Source: Bryobacterales bacterium
Lineage (GTDB): Bacteria; Acidobacteriota; Terriglobia; Bryobacterales; Bryobacteraceae
DNA length: 47,304 nucleotides
NCBI GenBank assembly: GCA_947467185.1
Contig: CANIHR010000005.1
Coordinates: 1-47,304, forward strand
Direction: 5' to 3'
Below the pieces are notes generated by a model. The model was not told the DNA's origin and made no database searches. It worked only from the letters and a program-made list of their open reading frames with translations. Shown one piece after another: positions 40,285 through 43,607 of the stretch (positions are counted from its first letter, which is position 1; each line of letters begins with the position of its first letter). A program made the translations under genes and the position numbers.

Positions 40285-41388
40285 CTAAAGCCGGACCATT
40301 CGACCATCGCTGAGCAGGCGGAACCGGTCTGTGCGCCACTCTACGGTATTGCCGAACAGTCCCGCGCACCAGACCGCGAAGCCCAGCAGATCTCGAAAGG
40401 GGACGGCCATCAGCCCAGCCTGGCTCGCGCCAAGGGCCCCCAGTGCGCTGGCTGCGGCTGCCAGCCGAATCGCCAGACCTGCGAGCGCTATCGGCCATGC
40501 CCCAAGCACTGCGGCAACCAGGCACCAGAACGTGGCGTGGGTCACGACATAGCCCAGATACCCCCCGGGTCGCGAAATCTGAATCGTTCGGGACCAGCGC
40601 ACCTGATGCCGCCAGACCTCGACCGCGCTACCGGTGCCGAGATTGGTCTCCACCACCATGCGCGCCATCTCGATACGCTTGCCCAGCGCCGAAATTCGGG
40701 CTCCCAGTTGGTAATCGTCCGCCAGATACTCGCGGATCACCTGGAAGCCGCCAATCGCATCCAGTTCCCGCCGCCGGAAGGCCATCGTAGAACCCAGTGC
40801 GAAACCGGTGCTCGAAAGCAGCCGCGCTACCAGCACCGAAGGCGCAAATTCGGTCCCGATTCCAAGCGCCTCAGCGGACGCCGGCAGCGATTCTCCGCGC
40901 CCCCGATAGAGACACGTCACCAGTCCGACGGCCTCATCCTCCAGATACCCCAGAACATGCTTGAGATACCCGGACGGAACCGTGATATCGCCGTCATTCA
41001 CCAGCAGGACCTGATGCCTTGCCTCGCGTGCCAGAATCTCGAGCGAACCGGCCTTCCGGTTCGGCGCTTCGTTCGCTGTCTGCAGAACCCGGATCGGAAT
41101 GTGCGGGAATTCCCGCTGCAGGCGCTCAATGTCTGCCACCGCAGGATCCGCCAAATCCGCCACACCAAACAGGAGCTCAAATTCGGGATAATCCTGCGCG
41201 GCATGTGACCGGATCGCCTCGTAGAAACCCAGATCGCGCCCGCGGACGGGCTTCAGAATCGACACCGGGGGCTGGTAGGATGTCACCGGCCCCTTGCGGC
41301 TGCGAAAACGGGCTGCTCCGGCAATCGCCAGCAGGTTGTAAGCCGCCCCGCATGCTACCAAAACCTCTGCTGGCAACACGGTGTTCAT
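40285..41388 (-). CDS. hpnI: Hopanoid glycosyltransferase HpnI
   Basis: The 367-residue protein begins with a membrane helix (VLPAEVLVACGAAYNLLAIAG) and has a GT2/GT21-like (ceramide-glucosyltransferase-like) domain. It contains VSILKPVRGRDLGFYEAI, LLVNDGDITVPSGYL with the DxD motif, and RHQVRWSRT, a variant of the (Q/R)xxRW motif. Two or three C-terminal membrane helices follow. HpnI attaches an N-acetylglucosamine unit to bacteriohopanetetrol. The ATG at 41388 overlaps the preceding SMR gene by 4 bp. The deacetylase HpnK that normally acts next is not in the window. Confidence 0.85.
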   Translation of the reverse strand: MNTVLPAEVLVACGAAYNLLAIAGAARFRSRKGPVTSYQPPVSILKPVRGRDLGFYEAIRSHAAQDYPEFELLFGVADLADPAVADIERLQREFPHIPIRVLQTANEAPNRKAGSLEILAREARHQVLLVNDGDITVPSGYLKHVLGYLEDEAVGLVTCLYRGRGESLPASAEALGIGTEFAPSVLVARLLSSTGFALGSTMAFRRRELDAIGGFQVIREYLADDYQLGARISALGKRIEMARMVVETNLGTGSAVEVWRHQVRWSRTIQISRPGGYLGYVVTHATFWCLVAAVLGAWPIALAGLAIRLAAAASALGALGASQAGLMAVPFRDLLGFAVWCAGLFGNTVEWRTDRFRLLSDGRMVRL

Positions 41389-41747
41389 TGGGATATGAAT
41401 ACAACTCCGGCGGCGATCAACAGCGCCCCGGTCCATCGCTGCCAGTCCACTTTTTCCTTCAGCAAAACCCTCGCCAGAATGGTTTCCGGGATGAAAGTTG
41501 CCGCCGACATCGGTACCGCAAAGCTCATGGGCGCAATCGCAACCAGCTTGATGAAGGAGAAGAAGGAAACCGCCATTGAGAGCGTGGAGATGATGACGTA
41601 GCGGTTCTGCACCAGCAACGCCAGCGCGCGGCCAATGGCACCCGGGCGGAAGTCGCTGATCTCGCCGTGGTGCTTCATTCCCATGGACCGGAATACGTCG
41701 CCCGCCGTCGTCGCCGCCACCAGCAGAAACACCAGAAACCACTTCAT
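41385..41747 (-). CDS. Four-helix SMR/EamA-type membrane protein 2 of the hopanoid block
   Basis: The 120-residue protein has four membrane helices. It starts KWFLVFLLVAATTAGDVFRSMGMKHHG, includes IISTLSMAVSFFSFIKLVAIAPMSFAVPMSAATFIPETILA, and ends WQRWTGALLIAAGVVFISQ. The ALV-P and LKEKVDWQRWTG segments follow the EamA/SMR pattern. The small size and pairing with a second such gene resemble ArnE/ArnF, the proposed flippase of undecaprenyl-phosphate-aminoarabinose. Start and stop both overlap the neighbours (ATGA). Confidence 0.75.
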   Translation of the reverse strand: MKWFLVFLLVAATTAGDVFRSMGMKHHGEISDFRPGAIGRALALLVQNRYVIISTLSMAVSFFSFIKLVAIAPMSFAVPMSAATFIPETILARVLLKEKVDWQRWTGALLIAAGVVFISQ

Positions 41748-42160
41748 TGCGACTTTGCCTCCGCGGAGGTTGGGTCGGTGCGGCTCACCAGCATGACGCC
41801 CAGCGTAATCAGCCCGATCCCCGTCCACCGGTAAACCGAAATCTCTTCACCCAAAATGAAGCGTCCGGAAAACGCCGTCAGCACGTAGCCGATGGCGGTC
41901 ACCGGCATCACGTAACTCAGATCTGCCCAGCTCAGCAGTGCCATGTGGCTCAACGTCCACACAATCAGCAGGGCCACGCCCGCCGCCACATAGGGATGAA
42001 ACAGCGCACCGATCAGAGCGAGCGGCGTATTGCCGGGGTCGCCCAGTTTCTGCATGCCGTGGGTGAGAAGAGAATTGCCAGCCACGTTGCTCACCACGAC
42101 TATCGCGGTGAACAACCGTGTGCGCAAGCGGAGGTCTTTGTCTCGGCTAGTCGCCGGCAT
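41744..42160 (-). CDS. Four-helix SMR/EamA-type membrane protein 1 of the hopanoid block
   Basis: The 138-residue protein has four membrane helices: LFTAIVVVSNVAGNSLL, YVAAGVALLIVWTLSHMALLSWADLSYVMPVTAIGYVLTAFSGRF and GIGLITLGVMLVSRT. The motif ILGEEISVYRWTG is EamA-like. The ATG at 42160 lies inside the end of hpnJ (14-bp overlap), and the stop overlaps the next gene (ATGA). It probably pairs with the second SMR-type protein. Confidence 0.75.
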   Translation of the reverse strand: MPATSRDKDLRLRTRLFTAIVVVSNVAGNSLLTHGMQKLGDPGNTPLALIGALFHPYVAAGVALLIVWTLSHMALLSWADLSYVMPVTAIGYVLTAFSGRFILGEEISVYRWTGIGLITLGVMLVSRTDPTSAEAKSQ

Positions 42161-43607
42161 CTGCGGAGGCGGCGTGCTGCTGCCGCTGTTCAGCGATGAA
42201 TTTGCGGCGGCGGGACCGCAACGCCATGTATTCCTTCGCTTCCTTCGTGAGGCGTTTGCGCTCATGGGAGTTGAAGATGACCTTGCTGATCATGCGCCAG
42301 ACCACTTTAGGCCGGAAGTAGTATTCGCTGTAGAAGCGCTCCACCCAGTCCATAAGTTCGGCTTCGTCCAGGTTCTCGTAGACCACTTTAGGCAACTGAT
42401 TGCCTTTGGCGTCTACAATGCTGCCGACCGAAATCAGATCATTCTTCTGGGCGTAGGTATAAAACTCGGTACCGGGGTAAGGGTGGGCAATCGAAACCTG
42501 AATGGTTTCGTTGTCCAGCTTCTTCGCGAAATCAATCGTCTTGCGAATACTCTCCGCAGTCTCACCGGGCAGGCCCACGATGAAGTCGCCGTGAATTACC
42601 AGGCCCAGCTTCTTGCAGTTCGCCGTGAAGCGCTCGGCCATGTCGATGGTCGCGCCCTTCTTGATGTTCTTCAGAATCTGCGGATCGCCCGACTCATAAC
42701 CCACGATGAGCAGGCGGCACCCGGCTTCCTTCATCGCCTTCAGGGTGTCGTAATCGGTGGTAACGCGTGACGTGCAGCTCCACGTGAAGTTCAGGTGCTT
42801 CAGCTTCGAGCAGAGTTCAATTGTGCGCTCTTTCCGGTAGTTGAAGGTATCGTCGTCGAAGAAGATTTCCTTCACTTCCGGGAAGTTCTCGATGGCCCAC
42901 TTCACTTCGGCGACGATGTCGTCACTGGAACGCAGACGCCAGCGGTGACCGGAGTGCGTTTGCGGCCACAGGCAGAACGTACACATGGCAGGGCAGCCCC
43001 GCGACGTGTACATCGAGATAAACGGATTCAGCAGGAATGGAACGTTGTAATTGGTAACGTCCAGATCGCGCTTATAGGTCTTGGAAACCCACGGAAGCTC
43101 ATCCAGATTTTCGATCATGGGCGCTTCGGGGTTATTGACGATCTGGCCGTCCTTGCGGAAACTGGCGCCGGGAATCTCTTCCAGCGGGGTGCCGTTCGCG
43201 TAGGCCACAATCTGATGGTCGAATTCGCGGCGAATGATGAAATCGATGGCGTCGCTCGCGTTCAGCGACTTTTCTGGTTCCACGGTTACGGGCGGTCCCA
43301 CGAAGCAAACTTGCAGCTTCGGATTCGCCGCCTTCATCATCGTGGCGATCTTGCAATCGACGTCAAAACCGGGCGTCGACGTAAACAGCACCAGAAGTTC
43401 GAATTCCTTGCCCATCTCGACCGTTTGTTCAATCGAGATCTTATGGGGCGGCGCGTCGACAACCTTGCTGTCGGGCAGCATGCCGGCCGGATAGCAAAGC
43501 CACACGGGATACCAGTAGGACTCGATTTCGCGAGAGGCAGGCCAGCGTGAACTCGCACCACCGTCGAAGCCCTCAAAGGAGGGTGGGTTCAGGAACAGTG
43601 TTCTCAT
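42147..43607 (-). CDS. hpnJ: Hopanoid-associated radical SAM protein HpnJ
   Basis: This 486-residue protein opens with MRTLFLNPPSFEGFDGGAS, the typical HpnJ start, followed by a cobalamin-binding-like domain. The radical SAM motif RGCPAMCTFC has Cys205, Cys209 and Cys212 (CX3CX2C). A TIM-barrel domain includes IVGYESGDPQILKNIKKG and HGDFIVGLPGETAESIRKT. HpnJ converts the sugar-bearing hopanoid head group into the cyclitol ether. It is upstream of the two SMR-type genes and hpnI, all overlapping, so the four genes are probably translated together. Confidence 0.9.
   Translation of the reverse strand: MRTLFLNPPSFEGFDGGASSRWPASREIESYWYPVWLCYPAGMLPDSKVVDAPPHKISIEQTVEMGKEFELLVLFTSTPGFDVDCKIATMMKAANPKLQVCFVGPPVTVEPEKSLNASDAIDFIIRREFDHQIVAYANGTPLEEIPGASFRKDGQIVNNPEAPMIENLDELPWVSKTYKRDLDVTNYNVPFLLNPFISMYTSRGCPAMCTFCLWPQTHSGHRWRLRSSDDIVAEVKWAIENFPEVKEIFFDDDTFNYRKERTIELCSKLKHLNFTWSCTSRVTTDYDTLKAMKEAGCRLLIVGYESGDPQILKNIKKGATIDMAERFTANCKKLGLVIHGDFIVGLPGETAESIRKTIDFAKKLDNETIQVSIAHPYPGTEFYTYAQKNDLISVGSIVDAKGNQLPKVVYENLDEAELMDWVERFYSEYYFRPKVVWRMISKVIFNSHERKRLTKEAKEYMALRSRRRKFIAEQRQQHAASADAGD

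Follow-up and report, generated by a model that had tools for sequence, protein, structure and literature searches.

A conserved pair of SMR-type genes in the hopanoid head-group operon of Acidobacteriota as a candidate hopanoid flippase

In Proteobacteria, hopanoids are taken onward to the outer membrane by HpnN, a transporter of the RND type. The head-group reactions of HpnI, HpnK, and HpnJ are assigned by their chemistry (a UDP-sugar donor and radical SAM) to the cytoplasmic side of the inner membrane, and their product must therefore cross this membrane. More specifically, HpnI adds N-acetylglucosamine to bacteriohopanetetrol (BHT), HpnK deacetylates it, and cyclitol-ether formation falls to HpnJ (PMC12583986). 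Lipid-linked sugars can be moved by proteins of the small multidrug resistance (SMR) type: a lipid-linked amino sugar is the cargo of the SMR lipid subtype, whose portal at transmembrane helix 2 (TM2) could hold the prenyl tail in the bilayer (PMC9574504), and the mycobacterial Rv3789, an SMR-like decaprenyl-phosphoarabinose carrier, has been proposed to flip a lipid-linked sugar (PMC9574504, PMC11127046). Here we describe two adjacent SMR/EamA-type genes, SMR1 and SMR2, that lie between hpnJ and hpnI in a 47,304-nucleotide stretch of a Bryobacterales (Acidobacteriota) genome (GenBank assembly GCA_947467185.1, contig CANIHR010000005.1; hereafter, the window). Our analysis makes it somewhat probable that their products form an antiparallel heterodimeric, SMR-fold flippase of the inner membrane for hopanoids bearing an amino-sugar or cyclitol head group. 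If true, SMR-type glycolipid flippases would be extended from polyprenyl-phosphate sugars to triterpenoid lipids.

Neither the pair nor any hopanoid flippase was found described in the open-access literature, outside which subscription journals largely fall. An EamA-like gene is listed with a glycosyltransferase, a B12/radical-SAM enzyme, and squalene-hopene cyclase (SHC) in the hopanoid cluster of Leptospirillum ferriphilum; in the passage concerned, it appears as a domain in a list only, and no pair, function, or mechanism is proposed (PMC12654047). In addition, for one strain a survey of hopanoids in Acidobacteria reports that hpnJ is accompanied by two unnamed extra genes, which might or might not correspond to the SMR pair. 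As with SMR1/SMR2, the genes of ArnE and ArnF stand side by side in the operon of an amino-sugar lipid pathway, and their products are small four-helix proteins that lack a central Glu of the EmrE type; a first-pass annotation of this DNA had pointed out the likeness in size and pairing. Unlike them, the window SMR2 reaches only 25.1 bits against the ArnE model NF011625 (curated cut-off, 92 bits), identity to ArnE is 15–29%, and the partners are HpnI, HpnK, and HpnJ instead of ArnC or ArnT. EmrE and Gdx-Clo have the same predicted fold as the pair (Z 12.6 for SMR2 with Gdx-Clo and 11.8 for SMR1 with EmrE), whereas the central Glu is absent from SMR1 and SMR2, their Pfam family is EamA and not Multi_Drug_Res, and they are predicted to form a heterodimer of fixed opposite topology. 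Rv3789 is likewise of the SMR type, yet its substrate is polyprenyl-phosphate-linked (compared by description). HpnN is comparable in that it serves to localize hopanoids to the outer membrane, but it is an unrelated RND protein.

In the window, the four genes follow one another on the minus strand in the order hpnJ-SMR1-SMR2-hpnI (Table 1), with overlaps of 14 bp between hpnJ and SMR1 and of 4 bp (ATGA) at both the SMR1/SMR2 and the SMR2/hpnI joins, exactly as the first-pass annotation had read them. HpnJ and HpnI both exceed the cut-offs of their NCBIfam equivalog models; the hpnI product also matches Glyco_transf_21 (PF13506), and the CxxxCxxC cysteines of HpnJ are invariant among the 10 homologues compared. 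Matches of the two small proteins to EamA (PF00892) are weak (28.0 bits for SMR1, cut-off 28.2, and 32.8 bits for SMR2). The window makes up the entire contig C5 of genome G000. In addition to the HpnI and HpnJ of the window, the same genome encodes SHC (G000:C10, 656.7 bits), and its best HpnK candidate is a YdjC protein (G000:C48) at 177.8 bits, under the HpnK cut-off of 232.6.

The linkage was surveyed in 297 Acidobacteriota genomes, 47 of which contain HpnJ (48 hpnJ loci). These loci were mapped with hidden Markov models built from SMR1 and SMR2, and the SMR1 profile was run over the same 297 genomes, a strong pair being one whose first gene scores at least 120 bits. The SMR pair is present in 43 of the 47 genomes with HpnJ vs 4 of the 250 without it (a count not corrected for relatedness). 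SMR1 and then SMR2 lie downstream of hpnJ on the same strand at 39 of the 48 loci, and 26 of these 39 pairs have a 4-bp overlap at the SMR1-SMR2 join. At a 40th locus (G130) the pair lies about 8 kb downstream; in G195 the contig with hpnJ breaks off and a different contig carries the pair; and in G291 and G267 it stands beside hpnK instead of hpnJ. Seven of the sample's families (f1, f2, f10, f32, f50, f70, and f77) are represented among the linked genomes. With one or two such genes in a genome of some 4.5 Mb, each would fall within 9 kb by chance in about 0.4% of cases, and the SMR pair is not a chance neighbor of hpn genes.

Three layouts recur. The order hpnJ-SMR1-SMR2-hpnI is found in the window's family (f1) and in f50, and hpnJ-hpnK-SMR1-SMR2-hpnI in f32 and f10, including Chloracidobacterium-like genomes; C. 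thermophilum is a reported producer of BHT cyclitol ether (PMC5462960). In the Terriglobia-like family f2, hpnJ-SMR1-SMR2 is accompanied by hpnE, hpnC/hpnD, and a zinc alcohol dehydrogenase, with hpnI elsewhere. Collectively, hpnI adjoins the pair in 10 of the 39 loci. The pair beside hpnK is arranged as hpnK-SMR1-SMR2 in G267 and as hpnK-SMR1-SMR2-hpnI in G291, where SMR2 and HpnI are fused in one open frame. The first-pass annotation had made its proposal depend on a tie to hpnI/hpnJ in other genomes, and such a tie is conserved across several Acidobacteriota families and extends to a fusion in one genome.

Family searches were made with 27 aligned members of each protein, and residues were counted over the 39 pairs. 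EamA (PF00892) was matched by all 27 SMR1 and all 27 SMR2 members. At E ≤ 0.01, the ArnE model was matched by 27 of 27 SMR2 and 14 of 27 SMR1 members (best family E-value, 9.1e-8). ArnE is thus the NCBIfam model that most SMR2 members match, and among families of known function this glycolipid flippase comes closest, with scores under its cut-off. The central Glu of EmrE (E14 in TM1) is replaced by A, N, S, G, or Q in SMR1 and by A, S, G, or T in SMR2, an assignment that depends on the alignment register. The published SMR lipid subtype often has Asn at this position and conserves the Tyr switch (PMC9574504). Asn occurs there in 9 of 39 SMR1 proteins, including that of the window (Ala in 22), and in no SMR2; at the Tyr-switch position SMR1 has Y in 17 and F in 22 of 39, and SMR2 has L or F. 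Four residues past the central-Glu position, SMR1 carries D (29) or N (10) and SMR2 carries D (26) or E (13), and position 17 of SMR2 is acidic (D/E) in 39 of 39. Residues that never vary are G28, M36, D80, P86, R111, and W112 in SMR1 and E98, R104, and W105 in SMR2. An ordinary drug or polyamine exporter (Qac, Gdx, or MdtIJ type), co-transcribed by chance, would share the fold common to EmrE and Gdx-Clo; we regard it as extremely unlikely given the replaced central Glu, the scarcity of matches to Multi_Drug_Res (PF00893), the SMR family proper (1 of 27 SMR1, E 0.0055, and 0 of 27 SMR2 at the same E-value limit), and an hpn linkage that holds across families.

A tree built from few alignment columns places all SMR2 proteins in one clade (100/96), including those of genomes without SHC, and leaves SMR1 as a grade under the midpoint root. 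One ancient duplication followed by joint inheritance of SMR1 and SMR2 would be the simplest reading of this topology.

Fold comparison was used because a sequence search of solved structures gave nothing better than E 0.003 (NIPA2). AlphaFold2 models of the single chains reached a mean pLDDT of 90.3 (SMR1) and 90.5 (SMR2). EmrE and Gdx-Clo supplied the top PDB chains (Z 10–12.6 over about 100 residues), EmrE being the best match of SMR1 and Gdx-Clo that of SMR2, followed by SLC35B1; Foldseek E-values are weak (0.01–0.04), and for helical bundles a Z under about 13 calls for caution. On these models, both proteins are of the EmrE/Gdx (SMR) fold with four TM helices. The Arg/Lys loop bias of SMR2 is strongly N-out (mean −7.4, negative in 39 of 39). 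Individual counts are approximate because helix limits were taken from hydropathy; even so, the bias of SMR1 exceeds that of its SMR2 in all 39 pairs (+4 and −5 in the window), which predicts opposite topologies throughout. Opposite biases have been reported in over 95% of paired SMR genes (PMC9574504).

These predictions also bear on whether SMR1 and SMR2, instead of transporting, could serve HpnI and HpnJ as a membrane scaffold or as assembly subunits. The SMR2-HpnI fusion in G291 and the very tight gene overlaps would suit such a role, whereas a complete four-helix SMR fold with opposite topologies, a conserved intramembrane acidic residue, and the EamA E..RW motif, together with the HpnI of Proteobacteria that has no such subunits nearby, make it very unlikely.

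Starting from the operon, the conserved linkage, one fusion, and the predicted fold and opposite topology, all seen in the analysis, we infer heterodimer formation, flipping, substrate, and coupling as follows. On the cytoplasmic side, HpnI, HpnK, and HpnJ turn BHT into its N-acetylglucosamine, glucosamine, and cyclitol-ether forms, reactions known from published work. SMR1 and SMR2 would assemble in the inner membrane as an antiparallel heterodimer with the SMR fold. By analogy with the SMR lipid subtype, the polar amino-sugar or aminocyclitol head would pass through the center of the dimer, with the hopane body staying in the bilayer via a lateral opening between the two TM2 helices, and the lipid would be delivered to the periplasmic leaflet for onward transport. 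Residues D/E17 of SMR2 (TM1) and D80 of SMR1 (TM2-3 loop) are candidates for binding the amino group, and coupling might be facilitated or proton-linked.

Relatives outside the HpnJ loci bear on what the family may recognize. One SMR-like gene stands immediately after HpnI-like and HpnK-like (YdjC) genes in G037, G196, and G066, the arrangement of loci L173, L175, and L176; in G235 the gene before it is HpnI-like, and in G274 the SMR-like gene lies about 1 kb from an HpnI match. HpnJ is absent from all five genomes at the survey threshold. SHC is present in the four genomes checked (G037, G196, G066, and G235), in G066 on the same contig a few kilobases away. A single SMR gene with HpnI/HpnK-like genes and without HpnJ suggests that what the SMR family recognizes is the amino-sugar head group and not the HpnJ product alone. 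Loci L172-L176 represent this module; at L175 its flanking genes encode a PdxB-like dehydrogenase and a DegT aminotransferase, and the same gene types flank the SMR gene of L172.

Several observations weigh against a hopanoid flippase. The SMR pair was found at none of 80 HpnJ loci outside Acidobacteriota (nearly all from Proteobacteria, within about 9 kb and less at contig ends), 71 of which have HpnI nearby and 54 HpnK, so the head-group pathway can dispense with the pair or uses another flippase; only weak relatives (46–79 bits) were detected, in 35 of these genomes. Four HpnJ genomes of Acidobacteriota have no pair, and the fusion was seen once only. The correlation between the distances of SMR1, SMR2, and HpnJ (r 0.88–0.90) speaks for the flippase reading but is also expected from shared vertical descent. 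The bias of SMR1 is weakly N-in (mean +0.67) and negative in 12 of 39 proteins. In G169, G201, and G215 (family f18) and in G074 (f43), strong, orthologous pairs are kept and no SHC or HpnI was found. Lastly, ArnT-like PMT_2 genes, confirmed by Pfam, stand beside a more distant single relative in all three loci of Methylomirabilota that were tested (L194, L199, and L201).

Since such pairs occur in four genomes where neither SHC nor HpnI was found, the family is not confined to hopanoids, and strict hopanoid specificity was rejected. Three of the four were placed in the tree, where they group with SMR1 and SMR2. The pair might thus carry glucosamine-type glycolipids generally, with hopanoids merely the commonest partner in Acidobacteriota. 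We consider this unlikely: such genomes number 4 of 250 without HpnJ against 43 of 47 with it, and no glycosyltransferase or YdjC gene was recognized beside two of the four loci, whose neighbors were scanned in part.

The pair might instead flip a polyprenyl-phosphate-linked sugar, as ArnE/ArnF does, for transfer in the periplasm, the hopanoid being only indirectly involved. ArnE is the closest functional model, the pair persists in the four genomes where SHC and HpnI were not found, and in Methylomirabilota, where about 28 of 95 genomes hold a single relative at 104–126 bits, the PMT_2 neighbors imply that relatives may carry other glycolipids and may have a polyprenyl-sugar role. For the Acidobacteriota pair we give this alternative little credence. 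No polyprenyl-phosphate sugar synthase or GT-C transferase was recognized in the operon or among the neighbor families scanned at other hpnJ loci, HpnI is of the GT21 type and is reported to act directly on BHT (PMC12583986), and the pair tracks hpnI/hpnK/hpnJ. The first-pass annotation had allowed for a heterodimeric transporter of either the glycosylated hopanoid or its sugar-lipid donor. The former fits the fold, the opposite topology, and the ArnE-like signature; the latter lacks support from the operon because of the missing synthase and transferase and the GT21-type HpnI.

A flippase for head-group-bearing hopanoids would bear on how hopanoids synthesized at the cytoplasmic side of the inner membrane get to its outer leaflet and to the outer membrane. 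HpnN was not detected at E ≤ 1e-30 (a single threshold) in 16 HpnJ-bearing Acidobacteriota and was found in Paraburkholderia; one genome (G029) has neither the SMR pair nor HpnN. That bacteria with HpnN undetected possess a dedicated EamA-type heterodimeric SMR flippase, moving glucosaminyl or cyclitol hopanoids to the periplasmic leaflet, is a proposition we hold with belief and doubt in equal measure. A conserved gene pair in the head-group operon makes the question of hopanoid flipping directly testable.

Table 1. Genes of the hpnJ-hpnI operon in the window
Gene	Position	Strand	Evidence	Product
hpnJ	42147..43607	-	TIGR03471 771 bits, cut-off 577.6	B12-binding radical SAM protein, bacteriohopanetetrol cyclitol-ether formation
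SMR1	41744..42160	-	Open reading frame, 14-bp overlap with hpnJ	138 aa, predicted four-helix SMR/EamA-type subunit
SMR2	41385..41747	-	4-bp overlaps on both sides	120 aa, predicted four-helix SMR/EamA-type subunit
hpnI	40285..41388	-	TIGR03472 350.7 bits, cut-off 310	GT21-type glycosyltransferase, bacteriohopanetetrol N-acetylglucosaminyl transfer

The operon is bordered upstream of hpnJ by an aldo/keto-reductase-like gene ending 32 bp away and beyond hpnI by a convergent pyrroloquinoline quinone (PQQ)-dehydrogenase-like gene whose end is 4 bp off, both named from a reading of the sequence and not from a family search. The genome of the window holds a second HpnJ (G000:C114, L033:7684-9225; 760 bits), which is 44% identical to the window HpnJ, lies between uvrB and trpS, and is closer to the Proteobacteria-like HpnJ type. 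An SMR pair of its own was considered for this second HpnJ and rejected, as neither an SMR pair nor hpnI lies beside it. A second protein matching the HpnI model (G000:C88, L189:6464-7633; 311 bits) adjoins a selB-like gene, and two HpnI-type genes are found in most HpnJ genomes tested.

The YdjC protein of G000:C48 (L188:4131-7639) is the only HpnK-like protein found in that genome. Its gene comes directly after a MlaD gene and the genes preceding MlaD, and this MlaD-YdjC block is kept in G289 (L216). It is a candidate for the HpnK reportedly missing in SD3 Acidobacteria, here tied to a lipid-transport system.

In Terriglobia-like genomes, a MlaE-type lipid ABC permease and a partner gene lie a few kilobases beyond SMR2, by the hpnC/D/E cluster (L036-L039, L041, L043, L050, L066, L070, and L073), and this permease near the f2 pairs is a possible substitute for HpnN. 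Upstream of hpnJ, many f2 loci (L037 and similar) encode a TolC-family protein, an RND-type periplasmic adaptor, and a TPR protein.

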